DNA of 64,000 nucleotides from Levilactobacillus mulengensis (GTDB lineage: Bacteria > Bacillota > Bacilli > Lactobacillales > Lactobacillaceae), in the NCBI RefSeq assembly GCF_003946045.1, contig NZ_RHNW01000004.1, positions 62,001 to 126,000 on the forward strand. Reading direction: 5' to 3'. The translations under genes were made by a program, and so were the position numbers. Every line of letters starts with the position of its first letter. Position 1 is the stretch's first letter. The notes beneath the pieces are model-generated. The model saw nothing but the letters and a program-made list of their open reading frames with translations. It made no database searches and had not been told where the DNA came from. Positions 8,891 through 56,143 of the stretch are shown here, piece after piece.

Positions 8891-9102
8891 TTGGGTTTGA
8901 GGTAGTCGCCTTCAGGCTGGTGAAAATGGTCTGGAACGCTGTGGGCGCACGCCTGGAGCCAAAAGGCGGTCTCCAGGCTTACTTTGAGCCTCTAAAATGC
9001 GAGTCTCAAAGATAGCAGTCATCTAAGCGGTAAACCGCTAAGATGACTCCCACGGCTGGGACCATTTTCACCAGCCCTGCGGCTAACACTGGCTTAACCC
9101 AA
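8891..9102 (+). repeat. structured intergenic repeat A1
   Basis: The outer arms TTGGGTT/AACCCAA (8891-8897, 9096-9102) and GGCTGGTGAAAATGG/CCATTTTCACCAGCC enclose three hairpins: CCTGGAG/CTCCAGG, TTTGAG/CTCAAA, and GTCATCTAAGCGG/CCGCTAAGATGAC (9018-9030, 9035-9047). Family A is present about 11 times in this window. It sits directly 3' of the SDR gene, in its orientation. Confidence 0.9.
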
Positions 9103-12759: not shown

Positions 12760-12972
12760 CGGGCTTGATCTTGGATTTCGCCTCCGGGCCGGTGAAAATT
12801 GAGCCGTGACGCTGTGGGCGCACGCTGGAAGCCAAAAGCGGTCTTCCAGCTTACTTTGAGCCGAAGACCACGTCTCAAAGATAGCAGTTGTCTAAGCGGT
12901 ACCCCGCTAAGACAACTCCCACGGCTGAGCTCATTTTCACCGCCCCTGCGGCTGACACTGGTTTAACCCGCG
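12760..12972 (+). repeat. structured intergenic repeat A2
   Basis: Core 12780-12957. Closing arms GGTGAAAATTGAGC and GAGCTCATTTTCACC; hairpin 1 CTGGAAG/CTTCCAG, where most copies have CTGGAG/CTCCAG (compensatory lengthening); hairpin 2 ACTTTGAG/CTCAAAG; hairpin 3 GTTGTCTAAGCGG/CCGCTAAGACAAC. It starts at the degV stop and has the same orientation. Confidence 0.88.
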
Positions 12973-18024: not shown

Positions 18025-18232
18025 GTCGTTGTCAGCGCCTCCGGGCTGGTGAAAATGGGCCGTGGCGCTGTGGGCGCACGTCTGGAGCCTGAGAAGCGGT
18101 CTCCAGACTTACTTTGAGCCGCTGAGAAACGCGTCTCAAAGATAGCAGTTGCCTAAGCGGGGAACCCGCTAAGGCAACTCCCACGGCTGAGCCCATTTTC
18201 ACCAGCCCTGCGGCTGACGTGGGTTTAACCGA
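18025..18232 (+). repeat. structured intergenic repeat A3
   Basis: Typical family A copy. The closing stem GGGCTGGTGAAAATGGGC pairs exactly with GCCCATTTTCACCAGCCC (18 bp), extended by GTCAGC/GCTGAC. Hairpins: GTCTGGAG/CTCCAGAC, CTTTGAG/CTCAAAG, and GTTGCCTAAGCGGG/CCCGCTAAGGCAAC (18148-18161, 18165-18178). It starts immediately after the repressor gene stop. Confidence 0.92.
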
Positions 18233-21751: not shown

Positions 21752-21972
21752 TCCGGCGGGTTAAGTCGTTGTATACGCCTCCGGGCGGGTGAAAATGGGA
21801 GCGGAACGCTGCGGGCGCACGGCCGGAGCCAAAGGGCGGTCTCCAGCCTTACTTTGAGCCGCTGAGAAGCGCGTCTCAAAGATAGCAATTTTCTAAGCGG
21901 TAAAACCGCTAAGGAAATTCCCACGGCTGGCCCCATTTTCACCCGCCCTGCGGCTCATGTCGACTTAGCCGG
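21752..21972 (+). repeat. structured intergenic repeat A5
   Basis: Closing stem GGGCGGGTGAAAATGGG pairs exactly with CCCATTTTCACCCGCCC (17 bp), with compensatory change relative to A3. The outer arms TAAGTCG/CGACTTA pair too. Hairpin 3: AATTTTCTAAGCGG/CCGCTAAGGAAATT. It lies between the divergent LCP and luxS genes and forms an opposite-orientation pair with A6. Confidence 0.9.
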
Positions 21973-22168: not shown

Positions 22169-22393
22169 GTGTGGGCTAAGCCAGTGTTAGCCGCAGATAT
22201 GGTGAAAATGGGCTTAGCCGTGGTAGTTTCCTAAGCAGCTTGGCTGCTTAGGAAACTGATATTTTTGAGACTCGATTTGTGAGGCTCAAAATAAGCTCGG
22301 AGACCGCTCTGTGGCTTCGGGCGTTCGCCCACAGCGTTCCGACCCATTTTCACCATGCCGGAGGCGAGTAGAAACACTTTTGATAACCCACAC
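22169..22393 (-). repeat. structured intergenic repeat A6 (minus orientation)
   Basis: Outer arms GTGTGGG/CCCACAC. Closing stem GGTGAAAATGGG/CCCATTTTCACC. Hairpin 3 is perfect over 15 bp: AGTTTCCTAAGCAGC/GCTGCTTAGGAAACT. It ends 20 bases before the luxS -10 box. Confidence 0.9.
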
Positions 22394-41711: not shown

Positions 41712-41912
41712 TTGTTGGCGCCTCCGGGCTGGTGAAAATGGGCCGTGTCGCTGTGGGCGCACGCCTGGAGCCAAAGGGCGGTCTCCAGACTTACTTTGAG
41801 CCGAAAGTCACGTCTCAAAGATAGCAGTTGCCTAAGCGGGGAACCCGCTAAGGCAACTCCCACGGCTGAACCCATTTTCACCAGCCCTGCGGCTAAGACT
41901 CGTTTAATTCGT
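41712..41912 (+). repeat. structured intergenic repeat A7
   Basis: Family A, nearly identical to A3: closing stem GGGCTGGTGAAAATGGG/CCCATTTTCACCAGCCC; hairpins CTGGAG/CTCCAG, CTTTGAG/CTCAAAG and GTTGCCTAAGCGGG/CCCGCTAAGGCAAC. It starts about 12 bases after the antiporter stop. Confidence 0.9.
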
Positions 41913-42821: not shown

Positions 42822-45548
42822 TTAAAAACGATGTTGATTTGCTAAATCCTCTTCGCGTTTTTTCAGGGGCCGTTGCCATTCTACCGTGACCCACAGGAGG
42901 AGGAAGATGGCGAAGCTGGCCAAACTAATGGTCATGCCCAACTTCAGTCCTGGTGTGGTGTAGTGCAGGACAACGTGGTTCTTGCCCGGCTTGAGCGGCA
43001 CGCCGATCATTCCCGGATAGTTGTGGCGCACGGGAATCAGGGATTGCGCGTGCATGGCCGCTTGAATGGCGACTGGTTTGCCATTGACCGTTGCCGACCA
43101 ACCCGGCGTCTTCGGAATCGCGACGTAGAGTAGGTTACGGTCCGTGGTCCCCGTGACGTCCCCGGACAACCAGGAGACACCGCTATTGGCCCGCAGTTTG
43201 AACCGTTGTTGCTTCAAACTATCGGCCAGTTTGACATATTTACGCTCGTTCATTGAGGCAAACTGGTTGGTGTAGCCCGCCAGTGGAGCCTGAGTGACGT
43301 AACTGATCTTCAGCACGTCGCCCTTGGTGAACCAGCCCAATTTTGCCAAATATCGGTAACCATCGGCCTTGATCATGGGTCTGACGGAACGGCCGTTGAC
43401 CGCCAAACTCGAGTAGATTATCGCGTTGGCCGGTGAGTAGCCGTGCAACAGGCCGGTCGCGGTGACCCGCACCTTAAAGGTTTGGACAAAGCGTTGGTCC
43501 GGCATCTCGGTTGAGCCGGCAACCCGTTTGAGGTCGTCCTCATGCGCCCGGTGAGTCGTGACGCTCAGCACCTTCACGGGAGCCAGCGTATTCTTAGGCG
43601 CATCTAAGGCCGCCAGAATGCGTTGCTGGTTGATCAATGCCGCCTGGTCATCCAACTGGAGCTTGCCAAACTTTTGTGGCACCGCGAAGCCGAAACCGGC
43701 GTACGTGTCCAGCCGGTCGACCGGGTCCTGGTGCTTCGCGTTCAGCCGATATTTAACGCCCATCAGCGTGTCGCTCAGACTGGAATAGCCCTGCGAACTG
43801 ATCCGCCGCGCGTTCGGACTGAAGTAGCCGAGGTCGTGTTGGAAGACCCGAGCCTGCTCGTTCAGCGTGGAACTGTAGTAACTGACGCCAGGGTAATTGA
43901 ACATGATGGCGTCGTTGTAGTGGTTGTAAACGCCGCTGTAGGCCCGGCCAATTTGCGAATGGCTGAAGTCGATGCGGTGCAGGTTCGGTTTAGATTTGGC
44001 AGCCGTCACCCGGTTGAGGTTAGCGGCGTCCTTTTGGTAGTATTTTTCAAACTTGGGCTGCGAACCCCATTCCATGCCCTGCGTGGCCATCAGGAAGGTG
44101 CCCCCGAGCTCAAACGAAATCAAGACGCCCATTAAGCCCAGGCGAATCGGCCGCCACTCGGTGATAAAGAGTAGCATCGTGTTGAGCAACAACAGGCCCA
44201 ATGCCGGCCACAGTAGGTGAAAGGCCGGTTGGCTCATAACGTACAGGTCGTGATTGTAGCTGGGCAGCAAGTGGTCCCAAACGGTTGGAATCACCTGGGC
44301 GCTCAGAAAGCCGATGACCAGTAGGCCCGCGGCCCAGACCAGGGCGAGGACCTTTTGCGGGTCGTTCATCGACTGCGACGGGTGCGTTTGCCAAGCCCGG
44401 TAGGCCGTCGTCAACGCCAGGAACGTAAAGAAGTAGACGTTGCGGTACGGGAAGCCAGCGGGCTGCTGGAACATGTGCCAGGCGGTGTTTAATACCGTGA
44501 TGAATAGGCCCAGTCCCATGACAATTAAGAGCCACATCGTTCGCTTCTTTTCCACCGCGTGAATCTGCGGCGAGACGAAGTAGACGATGAGCAGGAGAAA
44601 CATCAGCGTGCCCATGAATAACGACGGTGCGTGGTATAAATGAGACACGTAGGTGCTGGTGCCCGGCGCAAACTGGGCGAGCACTTCCGGCCCGAACATT
44701 GGCGTGGGCAGGTAGTTGTTGATGAAGAAATTACTCTTTCCGGTCAGCAGCATCCCCATCGCTGTCGGAATCAGTACGATCATCGACATCCCACCGGCAA
44801 CCAGGGAGCCAATCGTGAATTGGCGGATGGCCGGCCAGTGCATGTGCCAAACGTCCTTGAATGGCGTCGCGGTTGGTTGATGTTCAATGATTAAGTAGAT
44901 AAAGTACATAACTGAAAATAGGCAAGTCATATAACCCATATAGTAATTGCTAATGATGGTGACGGTCAGACTAACCGTGTACAGGCCATAGTGGTGCAGG
45001 CTGACGATGCGGTGCAGGCCCAGCGCGACCAGCGGCAGCCAAATCAGGGCGTCCAGCCACATCATGTCGTAGAAGTACATGCTAACGAATCCGCACAGGC
45101 TAAAGGCCGTGGTGAACAGTAACATGGACCAGCCGCTCTTTAAGAAGGCGTGCCGGATGAAAACGGCCATGGTCAGGCCAATCGTACTAATTTTTAAAAT
45201 AATGATCCAGGTCATCGCCACCGGCAATTTGGTCGCCGAGAAGAGAAAGACCAGGAGATTGAATGGACTGATGACGTAGTAGGTCAGGAGGGGAATAATG
45301 CCGCTCCCAGACCCGAGTGAGAAGGAAAACAGGTGGAACTGCCCGTGCAGGACGGTTGCCCGCAAATTTTCCAGAATGGGGATGTACTGGGTCCCCATGT
45401 CGCTAAACAGTAAGTTTCGTGGGCCAAACGGTGTAATCTGTAAACGCCAAAAGATTAGACACAGAATGGCGAATGGAATTAGAAATGCGCCCCCATACAC
45501 CCAGCGGCTAACTCTTAGGGCCGCTAGGGTGTGCCGTTGTTGCTTCAT
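42822..45548 (-). CDS. YfhO family membrane protein
   Basis: About 908 residues from ATG 45548 (GGAGGGG upstream). The frame continues through repeat B3 to 45707, but that part is repeat sequence, not protein. Twelve or more helices occupy the first 520 residues, with FSDMGTQYIPIL and SFSLGSGSG near the start, then a large extracellular C-terminal domain and a last helix. YfhO proteins are GT-C-fold enzymes implicated in glycosylation of teichoic or lipoteichoic acids. Start codon and repeat B3 are only about 45 bases apart, so the promoter must lie in or beyond the repeat. Confidence 0.9.
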   Translation of the reverse strand: MKQQRHTLAALRVSRWVYGGAFLIPFAILCLIFWRLQITPFGPRNLLFSDMGTQYIPILENLRATVLHGQFHLFSFSLGSGSGIIPLLTYYVISPFNLLVFLFSATKLPVAMTWIIILKISTIGLTMAVFIRHAFLKSGWSMLLFTTAFSLCGFVSMYFYDMMWLDALIWLPLVALGLHRIVSLHHYGLYTVSLTVTIISNYYMGYMTCLFSVMYFIYLIIEHQPTATPFKDVWHMHWPAIRQFTIGSLVAGGMSMIVLIPTAMGMLLTGKSNFFINNYLPTPMFGPEVLAQFAPGTSTYVSHLYHAPSLFMGTLMFLLLIVYFVSPQIHAVEKKRTMWLLIVMGLGLFITVLNTAWHMFQQPAGFPYRNVYFFTFLALTTAYRAWQTHPSQSMNDPQKVLALVWAAGLLVIGFLSAQVIPTVWDHLLPSYNHDLYVMSQPAFHLLWPALGLLLLNTMLLFITEWRPIRLGLMGVLISFELGGTFLMATQGMEWGSQPKFEKYYQKDAANLNRVTAAKSKPNLHRIDFSHSQIGRAYSGVYNHYNDAIMFNYPGVSYYSSTLNEQARVFQHDLGYFSPNARRISSQGYSSLSDTLMGVKYRLNAKHQDPVDRLDTYAGFGFAVPQKFGKLQLDDQAALINQQRILAALDAPKNTLAPVKVLSVTTHRAHEDDLKRVAGSTEMPDQRFVQTFKVRVTATGLLHGYSPANAIIYSSLAVNGRSVRPMIKADGYRYLAKLGWFTKGDVLKISYVTQAPLAGYTNQFASMNERKYVKLADSLKQQRFKLRANSGVSWLSGDVTGTTDRNLLYVAIPKTPGWSATVNGKPVAIQAAMHAQSLIPVRHNYPGMIGVPLKPGKNHVVLHYTTPGLKLGMTISLASFAIFLLLWVTVEWQRPLKKREEDLANQHRF

Positions 45549-45591
45549 GAATACCCCTCCGTTATTGATCCTGGTTAAATTGTCCTTTGCT

Positions 45592-45860
45592 TTGACAGCG
45601 CCTCCGGGCTGGTGAAAACTGGGCTTGGTCGTGTCCGTTCCCGACGGCGGGCTCAAACTGCCCTGCTGTGGGGTCGGTTCCAGCCAAAGTGCGGGCTTCC
45701 ACCTCAACTTTGAGCCTGAGATGCGGTCTCAAAGGTTGCCCCATGCTCTAAATAGAGAAAATCACTCTATTAAGACCATCGACACAGCCGGGCAGTTTGG
45801 CCCGCCTCTGGTCACTTCCACGACCGGCCCAGTTTTCCCAGCCCTGCGGCTGACACGGAA
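45592..45860 (+). repeat. structured intergenic repeat B3
   Basis: Family B. Outer CTGGTGAAAACTGGGC/GGCCCAGTTTTCCCAG. Internal stem GGCGGGCTCAAACTGCCC pairs with GGGCAGTTTGGCCCGCC. Hairpin TAAATAGAG/CTCTATTAA, a sequence not seen in other copies but still paired. Oriented opposite to yfhO and covering its upstream region. Confidence 0.9.
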
Positions 45861-46180
45861 TTTAATCCGCATCAATCGTCGTGGACGGTCTGCTTTTGTG
45901 ATGATGTGTTGGTGAAAATGGTGTCGCGTCCGTTCCCAGCGGTGCGCTACGGTAATCGTCCTGCTGTGGGGTCGGTTCCAGCCTGAGAAACGGGCTTCCA
46001 CCTCAACTTTGAGCCTGAGAAGCCCCATGCTCTAAGCTGAGTGAGAAGCCTCAGCTTAGAGCATCGACACAGCTGGTCGCCTTGGCGCACCTCTGGTCAC
46101 TTCCACAACTGGCCCAATTTCACCAGCCCTGCGGCTGACACGGAATTTAATCCGCATCAGTCGTCGTGGATGGCCTGCTG
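45848..46180 (+). repeat. repeat B4 inside a 284-base tandem duplication with B3
   Basis: The unique right flank of B3 (45848-45896, beginning TGCGGCTGACACGG) recurs with few changes right of B4 (46132-46180), so B4 and flank are a tandem duplicate of B3 and flank. B4 (45905-46150) lacks about 15 bases (GCGGTCTCAAAGGTT of B3), removing one side of the TTTGAG/CTCAAA hairpin. Confidence 0.85.
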
Positions 46181-46857: not shown

Positions 46858-47125
46858 CCGTGTGAGCCGCGGGGCTGGTGAAAATGAGTCAGTCGTGGAA
46901 GTGACCAGAGGTGCGCCAAGGTGACCAGCTGTGTCGATGGTCTTAGCTGAGTGGTTTTCTCAGCTTAGAGCATGGGACGACCTTTGAGACCGTACTTTGG
47001 CTCAAAGTCGAGGTGGAAGCCCGTTTCTCAGGCTGGAACCGGCCCCACAGCAGGGCGTCTTGAGCGCACCGCCGGGAACGGACGCGACGCGGCTCATTTT
47101 CACCAGCCCGGAGGCGCGGACAACG
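46858..47125 (-). repeat. structured intergenic repeat B5 (minus orientation)
   Basis: Family B. Outer GGGGCTGGTGAAAATGAG/CTCATTTTCACCAGCCC. Internal stem GGTGCGCCAAG against CTTGAGCGCACC: GC pairs replaced relative to B1 and B2 with pairing retained. Hairpin CTTAGCTGAG/CTCAGCTTAG. It ends about 35 bases before the response-regulator ribosome binding site. Confidence 0.88.
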
Positions 47126-49361: not shown

Positions 49362-49577
49362 GGACTATTAGTCGTTGTCTTTGCCTCCGGGCTGGTGAAA
49401 ACTGGGCCGTGACGCTGTGGGCGCACGTCTGGAGCCGAAAGGCGGTCTCCAGACTTACTTTGAGCCTCTAAGAAACGAGTCTCAAAGATAGCAGTTGCCT
49501 AAGCGGGGAACCCGTTAAGGCAACTCCCACGGCTGAGCCCATTTTCACCAGCCCTGCGGCGGACGGCGGCTTAGTCC
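49362..49577 (+). repeat. structured intergenic repeat A8
   Basis: Family A: outer GGACTA/TAGTCC; closing GGGCTGGTGAAAACTGGGC with GCCCATTTTCACCAGCCC (one bulge); hairpins GTCTGGAG/CTCCAGAC, CTTTGAG/CTCAAAG, GTTGCCTAAGCGGG/CCCGTTAAGGCAAC. About 160 bases past the kinase gene, same orientation; it forms an opposed pair with B6. Confidence 0.88.
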
Positions 49578-49956: not shown

Positions 49957-50027
49957 TTCCGCTGGCAAGGTGACGAACCCAGCCGACCGGTTCGGATCAA
50001 CTGATGAATAAGGAGTATGTCAAAAAG

Positions 50028-50993
50028 ATGTTAACTATCCGCGATATTGCCGCGAAGGCCGGGGTCTCAGTATCGACCGCCTCACGGGCTTTAAATAATA
50101 ATCCGCGCATTAGCCAGGCGACCCGGGAACGCATCCAGGCGCTGGCCGAGGCGGAGGGGTATTTGCCAAATTACAATGCGAAAAATTTAACGGCGGGTGA
50201 AGCAAATGCCGTGGGAGTAGTCTTTCCGACTGCCGACCACAGTCATCCTGAAAATCCCTTCTACATTGACCTGTTACGGGGTATCAACGGCCAATTAACC
50301 CAACGACATTACGTGTTGTCCGTGGCCATCAGCAAGACGTCCGCGGATCTGTTGGAGAACGTCAAATCCATGGTCGTTCAGGGGAAAATCAAGCGATTCG
50401 TCCTCATGTATGCGCACCACGATGACCCGATTGCGGCCTTCCTGCGCCAGCACCATTTACGGTTCGTGACGATTGGTCAGCCGGATGACAACGCCAACGA
50501 TTACTTCGTGGACAACGATAACCTCCAGGCCGGGATCGGTGGGGCCACGTATCTGTTAGATCAGTTACAGGTCAAGCATCCCGTTTTCGTGGAGTCGGCG
50601 CACGACTGGGCCTACGAACAACAGCGGCGTCAGGGGTACGAACGCGTCGCTGCCAGCTTCAACGTGGAACCGTTGACCTGCAAGTTAGGCGAGGTCAATC
50701 GGGCCCGCTTGTTCATTAAGCAACATCCAGAAATTGATGGCATTATGGCGACCGATGATTTTAACGCGATTGAGTTCTATCGTTTGGTTCGTGAACAGTC
50801 CAGCATCCGTAATTTTCCGGTCGTCAGCTTTAACCACTCGCTACCAACAGGTTTGACGGATGCCAATTTGCATTCGGTGAACTTGTTCCCGGAAAAAATG
50901 GGTTCCGCGACCGTAGCTTTGCTGTTTAGTGACCGGGAACCTTTGGACACACCGACCCCCGGACAAATCAGAATTCCGTACGAAATTAAATAG
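50028..50993 (+). CDS. malR: LacI family regulator of the maltose locus (MalR-like)
   Basis: About 321 residues. N-terminal HTH LTIRDIAAKAGVSVSTASRALNNNPRISQATRERI with hinge helix; periplasmic-binding-like effector domain with DRDPIAAF-like segment and MATDDFNAIEFYRLV. The start is uncertain: ATG 50028 begins at the conserved LTIRD but is 12 bases from AAGGAG; ATG 50004 adds eight residues and has no ribosome binding site. It lies upstream of maltose transporter and phosphorylase genes, so a MalR role is inferred. Confidence 0.85.
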   Translation: MLTIRDIAAKAGVSVSTASRALNNNPRISQATRERIQALAEAEGYLPNYNAKNLTAGEANAVGVVFPTADHSHPENPFYIDLLRGINGQLTQRHYVLSVAISKTSADLLENVKSMVVQGKIKRFVLMYAHHDDPIAAFLRQHHLRFVTIGQPDDNANDYFVDNDNLQAGIGGATYLLDQLQVKHPVFVESAHDWAYEQQRRQGYERVAASFNVEPLTCKLGEVNRARLFIKQHPEIDGIMATDDFNAIEFYRLVREQSSIRNFPVVSFNHSLPTGLTDANLHSVNLFPEKMGSATVALLFSDREPLDTPTPGQIRIPYEIK

Positions 50994-51000
50994 ATTGTGA

Positions 51001-51045
51001 GGGCCTGCACGACTGGCGATAAATCCAGTCGGCAGGCCTTTTTTA
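51001..51045 (+). terminator. terminator of the LacI gene
   Basis: Arms GGGCCTGCACGACTGG/CCAGTCGGCAGGCC, followed by T run. Confidence 0.88.
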
Positions 51046-51058
51046 ATTGTCAGCGGCA

Positions 51059-51107
51059 TAAAAGCGCTTTAAAAAAGTTCCAAAAAAAGTTGCGCAAACG
51101 GTTGCAT
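51059..51107 (+). promoter_or_regulatory. MalR/CcpA operator region of the maltose transporter
   Basis: AAAGCGCTTT (51061-51070) is a perfect LacI-type palindrome. TGCGCAAACGGTTGCAT (51091-51107) on the minus strand reads ATGCAACCGTTTGCGCA, a cre consensus match except for the two degenerate end bases. Both lie within 130 bases of the transporter start. Confidence 0.65.
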
Positions 51108-51187
51108 TAATTTCAATCCGGTGCAATAATGATTCATGTAATCGTTTTCAGCAATTATTTAAAAATGAGATTTTAGGAGGTTTTCAC

Positions 51188-52561
51188 ATGTCAGATGTTG
51201 CTTCTGAAAAGGCACCAACAGCTGAAGTCAAGCCCAAAAGTGGCCTGCCTAAACTGCCTGCCAGTACAATTTGGATGATCAACTTTGGTTTCTTGGGGGT
51301 TCAAACGGCCTTCACGTTACAAAGTTCTCAAATGAGTCGGATCTTCCAAACCATTGGGGCCGATCCTAACAGTTTAGGGTGGTTCTTCATTTTGCCACCA
51401 TTGGCCGGCTTGATTGTGCAACCGATTGTCGGGTACTATTCCGACAGAACTTGGGCACCAAAGTGGGGTGGCCGCCGGTTACCTTACCTGTTACTTGGGA
51501 CGATTGTCGCGGTCATTGTCATGTGCCTGTTGCCTAACTCAGGGAGTATGGGCTTCGGGTACGCGTCACTAGCTGCCTTGTTGTTCGGTGCCATTACCGT
51601 GGCCTTCCTGGACTTGTCTTCTAACGTTGCCATGCAACCGTTCAAGATGATGGTCGGGGACATGGTCAACGATGACCAGAAGAGTTACGCTTACGGGATT
51701 CAAAGTTTCTTATCCAACACGGGTGCCGTTTTAGCCGCCATCCTGCCATTCCTGTTCGCCGCAATTGGGATTGCCAACACCGCCTCTAAAGGGGTTGTGC
51801 CCGCAACGGTTAAGGTTGCCTTCTATGTTGGGGCTATCCTGTTGGTCATCACGAGTTTATTCACGATTTTCCGGGTTCACGAATATGATCCAGATACTTA
51901 TGCAAAATACCATGGCATTACCAAGGAAGATAACGCTGAAGGTGGGAACTGGTGGACGTTACTGAAGTCCGCACCTAAGGTCTTCTGGACCGTTACCTTA
52001 GTACAATTCTTCTGCTGGGTGGCCTTCCAATACCTGTGGACTTACTCTGCCGGTGCTATCGCTGCCAACGTTTGGCACACGACGAACGCCGCATCCGCTG
52101 GCTACCAGGCTGCTGGTAACTGGTACGGGGTCTTAGCCGCCGTGCAATCCATCGCCGCTGTTATTTGGTCATACGTTTTGGCTAAATTACCAAACAACGT
52201 GCACAAATTGGGTTACGCCGGAAGCTTAGGCTTAGGTGCCCTTGGGTTTATCTCCGTCTTCTTCCTGCACAACCAATACGCTTTGATCGTGTCATTTATC
52301 TTAGTTGGGATTGCTTGGGCTGCGATGAACACTTACCCATTGACTATGGTTACCAACGCTTTGTCCGGTGCCCACATGGGGACTTACCTGGGATTATTCA
52401 ACGGTTCAATTTGCTTGCCACAAATCGTTGCTTCCTTAGCTAGTTTCGCCTTGTTCCCACTGCTCGGTGGTGCCCAAGCCAACATGTTCTTGTTAGCTGG
52501 TGTCATCATGGCTATCGGTGCCTTCTCCGTCGGTGCCATCAAGGAAACGTACAAGGCTTAA
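51188..52561 (+). CDS. malT: maltose:H+ symporter, MFS/GPH type
   Basis: 457 residues, 12 helices, of the glycoside transporter group also called SLC45-like: NFGFLGVQTAFTLQSSQMSRIFQTIGADPNSLGWFFILPPLAGLIVQPIVGYYSDRTW near the N-terminus, then DLSSNVAMQPFKMMVGDMV. Such transporters lie next to maltose phosphorylase in lactobacilli and take up maltose unphosphorylated. Start ATG follows TTAGGAGG. Repeat A9 begins about eight bases past the stop, A10 follows, then the phosphorylase gene. Gene symbol by context. Confidence 0.88.
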   Translation: MSDVASEKAPTAEVKPKSGLPKLPASTIWMINFGFLGVQTAFTLQSSQMSRIFQTIGADPNSLGWFFILPPLAGLIVQPIVGYYSDRTWAPKWGGRRLPYLLLGTIVAVIVMCLLPNSGSMGFGYASLAALLFGAITVAFLDLSSNVAMQPFKMMVGDMVNDDQKSYAYGIQSFLSNTGAVLAAILPFLFAAIGIANTASKGVVPATVKVAFYVGAILLVITSLFTIFRVHEYDPDTYAKYHGITKEDNAEGGNWWTLLKSAPKVFWTVTLVQFFCWVAFQYLWTYSAGAIAANVWHTTNAASAGYQAAGNWYGVLAAVQSIAAVIWSYVLAKLPNNVHKLGYAGSLGLGALGFISVFFLHNQYALIVSFILVGIAWAAMNTYPLTMVTNALSGAHMGTYLGLFNGSICLPQIVASLASFALFPLLGGAQANMFLLAGVIMAIGAFSVGAIKETYKA

Positions 52562-52569
52562 ACGGATGT

Positions 52570-52767
52570 TTGCATCGCCTTACCGGTTGGTGCAAATGGC
52601 CCGGAACGCGGTGGGCAGGACGCCCGAAGCCGAAGGGCGGTCTTCGGGCTCGCTTTGAGCCTCTTAGACCGAGTCTCAAAGTCGCCAGTTACTGAGCGTA
52701 GCGCTCAGTAACTCCCACGGCTGAGGCCATTTGCACCAACCTCACGGCTAACATCGGTTTAAACCGG
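52570..52767 (+). repeat. structured intergenic repeat A9
   Basis: Divergent family A copy. Closing stem GGTTGGTGCAAATGGCC pairs exactly with GGCCATTTGCACCAACC (17 bp): both arms changed relative to A3. Hairpin 1 CCCGAAG/CTTCGGG; hairpin 2 CTTTGAG/CTCAAAG; hairpin 3 AGTTACTGAGCG/CGCTCAGTAACT, perfect 12 bp. Confidence 0.92.
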
Positions 52768-52884
52768 CCAGTTCTTTTCCTTAACTGATTGCTTCAAGTT
52801 GATTGACGTTAACTTGTATGATGTCATTGTGATACTGGTTTATCTTATCGGTTACCTATTGATCAATAAGTAGCGGGCTATTTC

Positions 52885-53092
52885 AATGGTTAAACCAGTA
52901 TTAGCCGCAGGGAGCCTGTAAATGGGCCCAGCCGTGGGAATCTTCTTAGTGGCTCTGCCGCTTAGAAGATTGATATCTTTGAGACGCTGTGGCGGCTCAA
53001 AGTAAGCGCGGAGACCGCTTCTTGGCTCCGGGCGTTCGCCCACAGCGTTCCGGTCCCATTTACAGGCTCCCGGAGGCGGACAACACACCATT
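52885..53092 (-). repeat. structured intergenic repeat A10 (minus orientation)
   Basis: Closing stem GGGAGCCTGTAAATGGG pairs exactly with CCCATTTACAGGCTCCC (17 bp), again both arms changed. Outer AATGGT/ACCATT. Hairpin 3 AATCTTCTTAGTGGC/GCCGCTTAGAAGATT with one mismatch. It forms an opposed pair with A9 ahead of the maltose phosphorylase gene. Confidence 0.92.
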
Positions 53093-53226
53093 TATAACAT
53101 TGTAAATAAACTGGCCAAATAAACTTTGGCTGGGGCGGCCTGAGGGTTTAACCATTTTGGCTGAGCGCTTGGGTCGCTTTTCATTTAAACGAAAATTACA
53201 CACTTAAAAAAGGAGACATGTTTACC

Positions 53227-55497
53227 ATGAAACGTATTTTTGAGGTACAACCTTGGAACGTCATTACCCATACTTTTGACCCCCAAGACAAGCGTCTTCA
53301 AGAATCCATGACTAGCTTAGGTAACGGCTACATGGGGATGCGGGGTGACTTTGAAGAAGGTTACTCTGGCGACTCTTTACAAGGCATTTACTTGGGTGGC
53401 GTCTGGTATCCAGATAAGACCCGGGTCGGCTGGTGGAAGAACGGTTATCCCAAGTACTTCGGTAAAGTGGTCAATGCCGTTAACTTCATCAAATTACCCA
53501 TCGAAATCAATGGTCAAGCCGTTGATTTAGCCAAGGATAAGTTTAGCGACTTCACCTTGGACCTCAACCTGCAACAGGGTGTCTTGAACCGGTCCTTCAC
53601 GGTTGAACGCGGGGATGTCAAGGTTGCCTTGACCTTCCAACGTTTCTTGAGTGTGGCCCAACAAGAACTCTCCGTTCAAAAGGTCACGGTCAAGAACTTG
53701 AGCGACGCCAGCGTTGACGTCACCATCAAGCCCAGCATCGATGCCGATGTTAAGAACGAAGAAGCCAACTACGACGAACGGTTCTGGGACGTCTTAGCCG
53801 CAGAACAAGGCCAAGACAGCGGTAGCGTGGTTGCTAAGACGACGCCTAACCCATTTGGCACCCCACAATTCACTTCTGGGATGGAAATGCGCACCGTGAC
53901 GGATCTTAAGAGCGTGGCCGTTACCCAACCGAACGACAAAGAAGTGGTCAACGCCTACACCGGGAGTTTAGCTCCGCAAGCAACCACTGAATTGGAAAAG
54001 CGGGTTATCGTGGTGACGTCTCGTGACTACGACACCCAAGAAAAATTAACGGCCGCTATGCACGAACTTAGCGACAAGGTTGCCAAGTCTTCCTATGAAG
54101 ATTTATTCGACGCCCACACCAGCATCTGGGGCAAGCGTTGGGAGAAGTCTGACGTAGTCATCAACGGCGACGACGAATCGCAACAAGGGATTCGTTTCAA
54201 CCTGTTCCAGCTGTTCTCCACTTACTACGGTGAAGATTCTCGCTTGAACATTGGGCCTAAAGGGTTCACGGGTGAGAAGTATGGTGGTGCCACTTACTGG
54301 GATACCGAAGCCTTCGCCGTTCCCGTTTACTTGGGAATCACGAATCCTGAAGTGACCCGTAACCTGTTGATGTACCGTTACAAGCAATTGGACGGTGCCT
54401 ACATCAACGCCAAGGAACAAGGCTTAGACGGTGCCCTCTTCCCAATGGTGACCTTCGACGGAATCGAATGCCATAACGAATGGGAAATCACCTTCGAAGA
54501 AATTCACCGGAACGGTGACATTGCCTTCGCCATTTACAACTACACGCGTTACACCGGCGATACCAGCTACGTCCTGCATGAAGGGGCCAAGGTCTTGACC
54601 GAAATTTCTAAGTTCTGGGCCGACCGGGTACACTTTAGCAAGCGTAACAATAAGTACATGATCCATGGGGTCACGGGTCCTGACGAATACGAAAACAACG
54701 TTGACAACAACTGGTACACCAACATTCTGGCCCAGTGGACGTTGAAGTACACGTTGGAGATCTTGGGTAAGGTTGACAAGGAAACGGCTAAGAAGCTGAA
54801 CATTTCCGCCGACCAAAAGGCCAAGTGGCAAGATATTGTTGACCGGATGTACCTGCCTTACGACAAGGACTTGAACATCTTCGTTCAACACGATGGCTTC
54901 CTAGACAAGGACATCGAACCCGTCAGTGCCATTCCAGACGGTCAACGCCCAATCAACCAAAACTGGTCGTGGGACAAGATTTTGCGGTCACCTTACATCA
55001 AGCAAGGGGACGTGCTCCAAGGTATCTGGGACTTCATCGACGACTTTACGCCGGAACAAAAGAAGTCAAACTTTGATTTCTACGAACCATTGACGGTTCA
55101 CGAATCAAGTCTGTCTCCCGCAATTCACTCCGTCTTAGCCGCTGACTTGCACTACGAAGACAAGGCCGTTGAATTGTACAACCGGACGGCCCGTTTGGAC
55201 TTGGACAACTACAACAACGATACGGTCGATGGCTTACACATCACGGCCATGACCGGTGGCTGGATTGCCGTGGTTCAAGGATTCGCTGGCATGCGGGTTC
55301 GCGATGGGCAATTACACTTTGCCCCATTCCTGCCTAAGCAATGGAAGAGCTACAGCTTCCGTCAAGTCTTCCGTGGTCGCCTGATTGAAGTCAGCGTTCA
55401 CGCTGATGGCCCACACTTCAAGCTGATCAGTGGGGAACCATTGACGATTGACGTGGCTGGTGAAAAGGTCAACTTAAGCGCCGCAGTCACTGAATAA
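53227..55497 (+). CDS. mapA: maltose phosphorylase, GH65
   Basis: About 756 residues. Splits maltose with phosphate into glucose-1-phosphate and glucose. The start MKRIFEVQPWNVITHTFDPQDKRLQESMTSLGNGYMGMRGDFEE and catalytic-domain motifs GYLGRVYWDTEAF-like (GATYWDTEAFAVPVYL), HNEWEITFEEIHRNGDIAFAI (general acid Glu) and HGVTGPDEYENNVDNNWYTN are those of bacterial maltose phosphorylase. ATG 53218 is only two bases from AGGAG, so ATG 53227 is preferred. A beta-phosphoglucomutase gene, usual neighbour, is absent from the window. Confidence 0.96.
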   Translation: MKRIFEVQPWNVITHTFDPQDKRLQESMTSLGNGYMGMRGDFEEGYSGDSLQGIYLGGVWYPDKTRVGWWKNGYPKYFGKVVNAVNFIKLPIEINGQAVDLAKDKFSDFTLDLNLQQGVLNRSFTVERGDVKVALTFQRFLSVAQQELSVQKVTVKNLSDASVDVTIKPSIDADVKNEEANYDERFWDVLAAEQGQDSGSVVAKTTPNPFGTPQFTSGMEMRTVTDLKSVAVTQPNDKEVVNAYTGSLAPQATTELEKRVIVVTSRDYDTQEKLTAAMHELSDKVAKSSYEDLFDAHTSIWGKRWEKSDVVINGDDESQQGIRFNLFQLFSTYYGEDSRLNIGPKGFTGEKYGGATYWDTEAFAVPVYLGITNPEVTRNLLMYRYKQLDGAYINAKEQGLDGALFPMVTFDGIECHNEWEITFEEIHRNGDIAFAIYNYTRYTGDTSYVLHEGAKVLTEISKFWADRVHFSKRNNKYMIHGVTGPDEYENNVDNNWYTNILAQWTLKYTLEILGKVDKETAKKLNISADQKAKWQDIVDRMYLPYDKDLNIFVQHDGFLDKDIEPVSAIPDGQRPINQNWSWDKILRSPYIKQGDVLQGIWDFIDDFTPEQKKSNFDFYEPLTVHESSLSPAIHSVLAADLHYEDKAVELYNRTARLDLDNYNNDTVDGLHITAMTGGWIAVVQGFAGMRVRDGQLHFAPFLPKQWKSYSFRQVFRGRLIEVSVHADGPHFKLISGEPLTIDVAGEKVNLSAAVTE

Positions 55498-55509: not shown

Positions 55510-55703
55510 GATTTTCGTTCCCGGCGGCGGGCTCAAGCGGCCCTGCTGTGGGGTCGGTTCCAGCCGAAGGGCGGGCTTCCACCTCAACTTTGAGCCTGAA
55601 AAGCGGTCTCAAAGGTTGCCCCATGGGCTAAGCTGAGTGAGAAACCTCAGCTAAGACCATCGACACAGCTGGGCGGCTTGGCCCGCCTCTGGTCACTGAC
55701 GGG
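55510..55703 (+). repeat. structured intergenic repeat B7
   Basis: Family B. Internal stem GGCGGGCTCAAGCGGCCC against GGGCGGCTTGGCCCGCC (with a central mismatch and bulge); hairpin CTAAGCTGAG/CTCAGCTAAG; TTTGAG/CTCAAA. The outer GGTGAAAA arms are lost. It follows the maltose phosphorylase gene by 13 bases, same orientation. Confidence 0.85.
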
Positions 55704-55748: not shown

Positions 55749-55932
55749 GCGCCTTCGGCATGGTGAAAATGAGACCGGTTCGCTGTAGGCGCCCGTCTGG
55801 AGCCAAAAGGCGGTCTCCAGACTTACTTTGAGCCTCCTAACCCGAGTCTCAAAGATAGCAGTTTTCTAAGCGGTAAACCGCTAAGAAAACTCCCACGGCT
55901 GAGCTCATTTTCACCATGCCTGCGGCTGACGC
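55749..55932 (+). repeat. structured intergenic repeat A11
   Basis: Family A: closing GGCATGGTGAAAATGAG with CTCATTTTCACCATGCC (17 bp exact), a further compensated variant. Hairpins GTCTGGAG/CTCCAGAC, CTTTGAG/CTCAAAG, GTTTTCTAAGCGG/CCGCTAAGAAAAC. Directly after B7, same orientation. Confidence 0.9.
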
Positions 55933-56143
55933 TGGTTTAGCCCATAGGTAGGCGGAGTCATCAAGTTTGCAATTACACAAATATAGTCAAAAGGCAGCGC
56001 TCACGTTTATGGTGGGCGCTGCTTTTGCTGTCGATTGCGGTTAGGAAGTTGAGTGTGTCTCGCTGTGTATTGGGTTAACGCCTCGAAGATATCGCCCGGT
56101 ATAATTTGCTTAAATTTCAATCCGATTCAAGGGGATGATGGCG

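Follow-up and report, generated by a model that had tools for sequence, protein, structure and literature searches.

A dispersed cloverleaf repeat of Levilactobacillus with covarying stems, whose fold may be kept mainly as DNA

Our study revealed that positions 52570-53092 of the window (the whole stretch of 64,000 nt that was analysed, which corresponds to 62001-126000 of contig C31 of the 3.11 Mb source genome) contain two separate copies, A9 (+) and A10 (-), of a large family of repeats with a covarying cloverleaf fold. The copies are in opposite orientation and face each other between an MFS gene and a GH65 gene, with cores placed by covariance model at 52584-52752 (+) and 52900-53071 (-). 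The original prediction, that compensatory changes across copies support a selected structure, holds as an observation, and the family is larger than was then described. We consider it somewhat probable that A9 and A10 represent a MITE-like, non-coding foldback element whose fold is kept mainly as DNA; the joint changes of the arms agree no less well with a fold maintained in DNA than with an ordinary RNA gene.

Abundance and range of the repeat family

A profile built from four copies located 10 full copies in the window, plus weaker relatives, and a covariance model (R1) was built from ten window copies. R1 scored the ten A copies at 157-197 bits and the remaining 21 rows at 49 bits or less, the latter being B-type copies or copies read on the opposite strand. 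The B type has the outer arms of A with a different interior, and 143 B copies scoring 40 bits or more were counted in the examined sequence of the source genome. Apart from A9 and A10, the copies in the window were as follows.

8914-9087, +, A copy, R1 192.5 bits
12786-12956, +, A copy, R1 173.1 bits
14970-15141, -, B-type copy, R1 and alignment
18043-18218, +, A copy with the A3 P1 arm at its start, R1 196.8 bits
20183-20364, +, divergent B-like copy, R1 and alignment
21783-21958, +, A copy with the A5 P1 arm at its start, facing 22186-22359, R1 183.4 bits
22186-22359, -, A copy, R1 175.6 bits
39063-39233, +, B-type copy, R1 and alignment
41726-41897, +, A copy, R1 189.4 bits
45646-45816, +, B-type copy inside A-type P1 arms, R1 and alignment
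45938-46104, +, weak B-type copy, R1 23.5 bits and alignment
46862-47109, -, B-type copy inside an A-type P1 arm, R1 and alignment
49389-49564, +, A copy, R1 197.3 bits
49760-49930, -, B-type copy facing the A copy at 49389, R1 and alignment
55526-55697, +, B-type copy (second interior) after the GH65 gene, R1 49.0 bits and alignment
55757-55930, +, A copy A11, R1 181.4 bits
60304-60473, -, B-type copy, R1 and alignment

The genes at 50004-55497 encode a LacI-type regulator, a sugar-symporter-like MFS protein and a GH65 protein; they may be a disaccharide operon in which A9 and A10 separate the MFS gene from the GH65 gene. The two copies of a 25-nt near-repeat, 84 % identical, lie at 51102-51126, upstream of the MFS gene, and at 56106-56130, upstream of a small ORF at 56135, and this repeat is possibly an operator of the LacI-type regulator (50004-50993). 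Elsewhere in the window, 42822-45707 (-) encodes a large protein with a match below the cut-off to the glycosyltransferases PgfM1/PgfM2.

The source genome carries at least 150 R1-matching copies (150 of 150 candidates scored). A set of 105 matches, 143-181 nt long, was drawn from 1.226 Mb of its sequence, which is no fair sample of density, because the contigs and stretches were chosen after copy locations were known. R1 matches were found in 33 of the 35 Levilactobacillus genomes searched, with none in G022 and G031, while a single copy used as a DNA query matched 32 of 58 genomes, 31 of them in the genus and one weakly outside it (E 6e-4). Among the 73 of 103 named loci that were searched, Lacticaseibacillus, Limosilactobacillus and Schleiferilactobacillus gave R1 scores of 32-66 bits, and these divergent relatives were loci L050, L081, L092, L046, L043, L023, L064, L048, L083 and L093; three pattern hits beyond the lactobacilli (L071, L077 and L115) gave no R1 match. 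Plasmid and phage collections gave no match to one copy used as query. Rfam gave no match at gathering score within the 64,000-nt window, and at E values up to 10 just two chance-level matches (E 7 and 8) within 52500-53150. A literature search, mostly of records without full text, found no description of this family, and nothing resembling it appears in the accessible portions of PMC2864571 and PMC8632094. As in MITEs, the copies are small, numerous and dispersed, have no coding capacity and are almost all intergenic, with 3 of 177 overlapping a called gene.

Fold of the element

The cloverleaf comprises an outer stem (P0), a closing stem (P1), a further stem (P2), three hairpins (P3, P4 and P5) and extra junction pairs. 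In A9 and A10 these were placed as follows.

52558-52570, +, A9 P0 5' arm TTAAACGGATGTT, complement of 52750-52762 with one mismatch
52584-52752, +, A9 core, R1 157.2 bits
52585-52601, +, A9 P1 5' arm, exact complement of 52725-52741
52608-52615, +, A9 P2 5' arm, partner 52714-52721
52618-52619, +, A9 junction positions (columns 39 and 40), partners 52686 and 52685, covariation at 40/109, coordinates counted by hand
52622-52649, +, A9 hairpin P3, fold and covariation
52651-52684, +, A9 hairpin P4 with two extra pairs (columns 73/108 and 74/107) and a one-base bulge, fold and covariation
52687-52713, +, A9 hairpin P5 (hairpin 3 of the original prediction), fold and located arms
52714-52721, +, A9 P2 3' arm CCCACGGC, fold
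52725-52741, +, A9 P1 3' arm, exact complement
52750-52762, +, A9 P0 3' arm AACATCGGTTTAA, complement of the 5' arm
52900-53071, -, A10 core with P1 arms at 53055-53071 and 52910-52926, R1 176.5 bits

All five closing-arm pairs that had been quoted were located, each with an exact complement: A3 (18043-18060/18191-18208), A5 (21783-21799/21932-21948), A9 (52585-52601/52725-52741), A10 (52910-52926/53055-53071) and A11 (55757-55773/55904-55920). The varying arms of hairpin 3 were likewise recovered, as GTCATC/GATGAC at 9018/9042, GTTGTC/GACAAC at 12887/12911, GTTGCC/GGCAAC at 18148/18173 and in two further copies, GTTACTGAG/CTCAGTAAC at 52688/52704 (A9), and TTTTC/GAAAA within the sequence of A11. 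With overlapping 17-mers counted singly, 8 perfect inverted pairs at a spacing of 100-200 nt were found in the window, and none was present in any of 10 base-shuffled windows.

Outside the core, flank composition of 176 copies showed P0 ends resembling GGGTTAAAC ... GTTTARCCC, with a clear signal 3' of the core and a weak one 5' of it. The flanks of a copy pair better with each other than when swapped between copies (-23.7 compared to -17.7 kcal/mol near the core and -19.3 compared to -15.6 kcal/mol further out), and by these two measures the element has terminal inverted repeats. The 5' arm of P0 in A9 includes the stop codon of the MFS gene (52559-52561; ORF end 52561). Inverted copying of the host flank may be a source of P0 complementarity, for which one case (G021_C1:145789) is suggestive. 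Mean folding energy by strand was -107.8 (+) compared to -109.4 (-) kcal/mol, which does not decide between the strands.

Covariation between paired positions

Across 105 copies, 95.8 % of 6232 cells were paired, compared to 32.5-50.1 % with slid partners, and 44 of the 61 pairs had changed on both sides (850 such cells), which none of 500 shuffles equalled; these counts lean towards the structure, because the alignment was fitted to the model. In a tree-based null, every column was evolved along a FastTree tree with as many changes as Fitch parsimony assigned to it (8 replicates), and column pairs were scored by the G statistic with average-product correction. Covariation above phylogenetic expectation was found by this null, which is our own and not R-scape: 26 column pairs at least 4 apart exceeded every simulated value, consisting of 22 of the 61 structure pairs and 4 others. 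The 39 structure pairs not above the null include many that are invariant or nearly so. The outcome named in advance as refuting the original prediction, an absence of such covariation, was not observed.

Three of the four extra pairs are Watson-Crick junction pairs, namely 40/109 (GC 54, CG 35 and AT 11 of 105), 73/108 (TA 85, CG 19) and 74/107 (AT 63, GC 39, CG 1), and the fourth, 1/198, is not. Together with 39/110 the three junction pairs were paired in 97.8 % of 418 cells; for this set two of five measures (the number of pairs with a double change, and further pair types) were not above shuffles, and a slide of +3 still paired 69.1 %. Between orthologues, 40/109 had no double change and few single ones, and 73/108 and 74/107 had several Watson-Crick doubles; in G021, five copies among the listed haplotypes had C/T at 40/109. 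In other species, pattern parsing read 57 of 69 copies, in which 40/109 was G-C in 50 of the 52 read, and hardly variable there, 73/108 was Watson-Crick in 48 of 57 and 74/107 in 50 of 57.

With 22 pairs beyond the null and three junction pairs that folding had missed, the pattern is therefore not that of random decay, and the claim that paired arms change together is borne out. The selected structure that had been proposed stands as a maintained fold, given the covariation and the constraint on the core described below, whereas covariation does not establish base-by-base selection on RNA.

Double changes and constraint between orthologous copies

Orthologous copies were compared among the source genome (G000), L. 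lanxiensis 13B17 (G021) and L. wangkuiensis 6-5(1) (G012), both also Levilactobacillus. Flank anchoring paired 30 of 104 copies for G000-G021, 25 of 104 for G000-G012 and 19 of 72 for G021-G012, with 53, 33 and 12 Watson-Crick double changes, respectively, and gene anchoring gave 34 doubles in 35 copy pairs, two pairs of <80 % identity having been dropped. At a core identity of ≥85 %, the comparisons retained 26, 19 and 17 copies; 9, 2 and 4 of these carried the doubles, now reduced to 24, 2 and 5. Because of this fall, many of the doubles appear to come from diverged, probably replaced copies; chance is estimated to yield about one or two doubles per comparison, and the excess is therefore clear in G000-G021 only.

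The loss of most doubles with the diverged copies is what would be seen if hairpins or interiors were exchanged by gene conversion or replacement, both arms arriving from one donor and their changes being only seemingly compensatory. The exchange of A and B interiors (see below) and the faster change at variable sites (11.6-12.0 %, compared to 8.8 % in flanks) also agree with such imported blocks. We nevertheless regard them as a quite improbable explanation of the family, as for six rewritten helices in copies with ≥90 % identity outside them (five in G000-G021, one in G021-G012) no second copy of the query-genome version was found, in a search that took in roughly 39 % of G000 and one quarter of the other genomes, with two target-side strings uncounted. 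The closing stem of A9 illustrates both sides of the argument. Of seven adjacent P1 pairs, five have both bases different from those of the G021 orthologue (TTGGTGC/GCACCAA compared to GTGAGAA/TTCTCAC), and the enclosed interior is almost unchanged (94.7 % identity outside P1). The G000 arm occurs in A9 alone within the examined G000 sequence, and the G021 arm has one further occurrence in examined G021, which agrees with a donor.

Rewriting of this kind on both arms is also expected of template switching. According to excerpts of PMC8794818, this process gives multi-base compensatory changes that keep stems perfect; it is a mutation mechanism and not a repeat family. Under such a reading, quasi-palindrome template switching in a selfish or dead repeat would produce the pattern by mutation only, without selection on the fold. 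Clumping of doubles in G000-G021 favours it: all anchored copies gave 73 pairs of doubles in the same copy and helix (random mean 16.5, maximum 34), with 5, 209 and 5 of 2000 helix-label shuffles as high in the three comparisons, and after removal of diverged copies the 24 doubles of G000-G021 still gave 26 such pairs (mean 4.1, maximum 14; 0 of 2000 label shuffles as high). Furthermore, 10 of these 24 doubles need a transversion. However, clumping was absent from the other two comparisons once diverged copies were removed, where only 2 and 5 doubles were available, the two-base junction helices covary too, and conserved sites change 5-8 times more slowly than flanks in G000-G021. Mutation without selection on the fold is thus, in our view, very unlikely.

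Slow change of conserved sites was seen in all three comparisons. Sites conserved in ≥97 % of copies changed at 1.6, 1.5 and 1.1 % when paired and at 1.1, 2.7 and 1.2 % when unpaired, compared to 8.8, 7.7 and 7.9 % in the flanks, and sites <85 % conserved changed at 7-12 %. The slow sites therefore indicate that the core is constrained, or else homogenized by exchange among like copies. Imported blocks and template-switch mutation probably contribute whichever reading holds.

Turnover and exchange of interiors

Of 355 syntenic intergenic regions shared by G000 and G021, A copies are present in 61, and in 30 of the 61 their number is not the same in the two species, in genomes whose 400 matched proteins have a median identity of 97.8 %. 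Thirteen regions had one A copy in one species and one B copy in the other, and seven had A compared to neither. Six regions were read; four had the B interior between both recovered outer arms, one had the 5' arm only and one could not be assigned. To our knowledge, no mechanism has been described for the exchange of an interior inside a kept stem.

Comparison of filled and empty sites gave 15 rows for 13 distinct copies. Direct repeats were clear at 3 of the 12 sites printed (TTTCT, TAATTA and an imperfect 11-nt repeat), and several differing sites were interior deletions rather than empty sites. At G021_C2:140045-140343 and G021_C2:232031-232559, shortened elements with fewer hairpins lie where G000 has a full A copy, perhaps representing a further mini-form. 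A link to REP/RAYT systems was not seen, as Y1 transposases occur in 23 of 35 genomes and the repeat in 33; G012 had no Y1 match and at least 79 copies, and G031 had five Y1 matches and no copies. A Y1/RAYT partner enzyme was rejected, since the Y1 distribution does not track the repeat, and the search, which covered the Y1 family, yielded no partner enzyme.

A fold in RNA or in DNA

Position relative to genes was examined for 176 copies from G000 and G021, with genes and terminator-like sites called by our own simple scripts. A total of 92 copies are sense to the 5'-side gene, with its stop codon at most 58 nt away in 78 of them and at most 32 nt away in 55; these sense copies are therefore probably transcribed. 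The other 84 are antisense to that gene and face its start (class medians 84.5 and 124.5 nt), and the 3'-side distance has a median of 448 nt. The usual orientation of a copy is away from the gene edge and into the intergenic region, and the 21 two-copy regions comprise 17 facing, 4 tandem and no back-to-back arrangements. Terminator-like sites lie on the 3' side of 72 of the 92 sense copies and on the 5' side of 9, the 3' side being much longer; in 68 of the 77 sense copies with such a site in the region, all sites are 3', where free placement would give 48.9. The element as its own terminator was set aside, as these sites, called by our own finder, lie mostly beyond its 3' side.

The sense copies close to stop codons, the 3' placement of terminator-like sites, the strong covariation and two near-constant G.U-like pairs would suit a functional structured RNA, transcribed in 3' UTRs and selected for its RNA fold in stability, processing or termination. 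We consider this unlikely, given that 84 of 176 copies are antisense, that copies turn over quickly (30 of 61 regions differ), that Rfam gave chance-level matches at most, and that G.U is rarer than A.C at variable pairs. At the variable pairs of the 176 copies there were 243 A.C and 99 G.U (105 and 56 in sense copies, 138 and 43 in antisense copies), a count made without the third P2 pair and the innermost P1 pair (the latter where it is G.U), two columns that are near-constant and G.U-like. When the near-constant columns were included for G000 copies, G.U numbered 237 and A.C 145, and G.U pairs as constant as these would be in keeping with a sense-strand RNA. Other species gave 81 A.C compared to 27 G.U (69 of 118 matches, leaving out six columns that are largely G.U), and 69 B copies gave 33 A.C compared to 23 G.U in 3372 cells (leaving out 3 of 52 pairs, largely G.U). 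In the stems of 15 tRNAs, G.U made up 21 of 333 pairs, with A.C not judgeable there because the program may mark accepted pairs only.

Single changes in close orthologues produced G.U and A.C at 31 and 32, 25 and 26, and 11 and 24 pairs in the three comparisons. At paired positions single changes were transitions or transversions in ratios of 64:23, 52:16 and 38:15, compared to 387:215, 303:142 and 234:114 in flanks, and this slight richness in transitions hints that mismatches other than wobble pairs are selected against. At unpaired sites, A/G transitions (7.1 %) exceed C/T transitions (3.9 %), and part of the A.C excess may therefore be mutational. G.U is not preferred at variable pairs, yet these counts do not cleanly dispose of an RNA.

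Under the reading that we favour, of a foldback element kept mainly as DNA, the element would be mobile, and its cloverleaf would serve chiefly as a DNA structure, a single strand or cruciform recognized by the machinery that moves it. Exchange of blocks between copies and template switching from arm to arm may help to keep the arms complementary, and any use by the host, such as stability of 3' UTRs or a transcript boundary, would be secondary. In attC sites, the bottom strand is the folded form. By analogy, the bottom strand of the repeat might fold as a single-stranded cloverleaf and act as a recombination substrate, with Watson-Crick pairs and G.T tolerated (A.C on the top strand), and an enzyme at the outer stem might swap A and B interiors; we offer this narrower proposal tentatively and hold it to be doubtful.

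Comparison with known repeats

The best reading, judged from published descriptions, would place the family near the YPAL, ERIC and Correia elements. ERIC is one long fold, whereas the Levilactobacillus element has three hairpins on stacked stems. In excerpts of PMC2229807, ERIC (IRU/RU-1) is 127 bp, with TA at its termini and a proposed role in mRNA stability in which orientation matters. The same excerpts describe YPAL/RU-2 of Yersinia as 168 bp and not A+T-rich, with target repeats of 3 to 26 bp, filled and empty sites, and targets that span or adjoin dyad symmetry. YPAL is alike in size and may be alike in having filled and empty sites, but the Levilactobacillus element has an outer stem and cloverleaf, covarying junction pairs and two alternative interiors. 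Correia/NEMIS elements, again from excerpts of PMC2229807, have terminal inverted repeats and occur in two forms, of ~107 and ~155 bp, set apart by an internal segment. These two forms are somewhat like A and B; however, the ends described there are 24 bp with TA, and A and B have different interiors rather than one interior and an added segment. The MRSC-65-2 motif, in the accessible part of PMC11109978, shows strong covariation, is likely a selfish element and may matter structurally as DNA; as described there, it is a single long stem spread over many phyla, whereas the Levilactobacillus element is a cloverleaf. Three stem-loop clusters are described for Lactobacillus johnsonii in the accessible part of PMC2267715.

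Conclusion

In summary, the element is dense in the intergenic regions of a genus used in food fermentation, and its interior is exchanged inside a kept stem. Covariation is widely read as proving that an RNA is functional. The present family provides hundreds of natural replicates with very strong covariation and a substitution pattern that is not clearly RNA-like, and it therefore offers a usable test of the extent to which selection on RNA is mimicked by DNA-level structure, block exchange or template switching.
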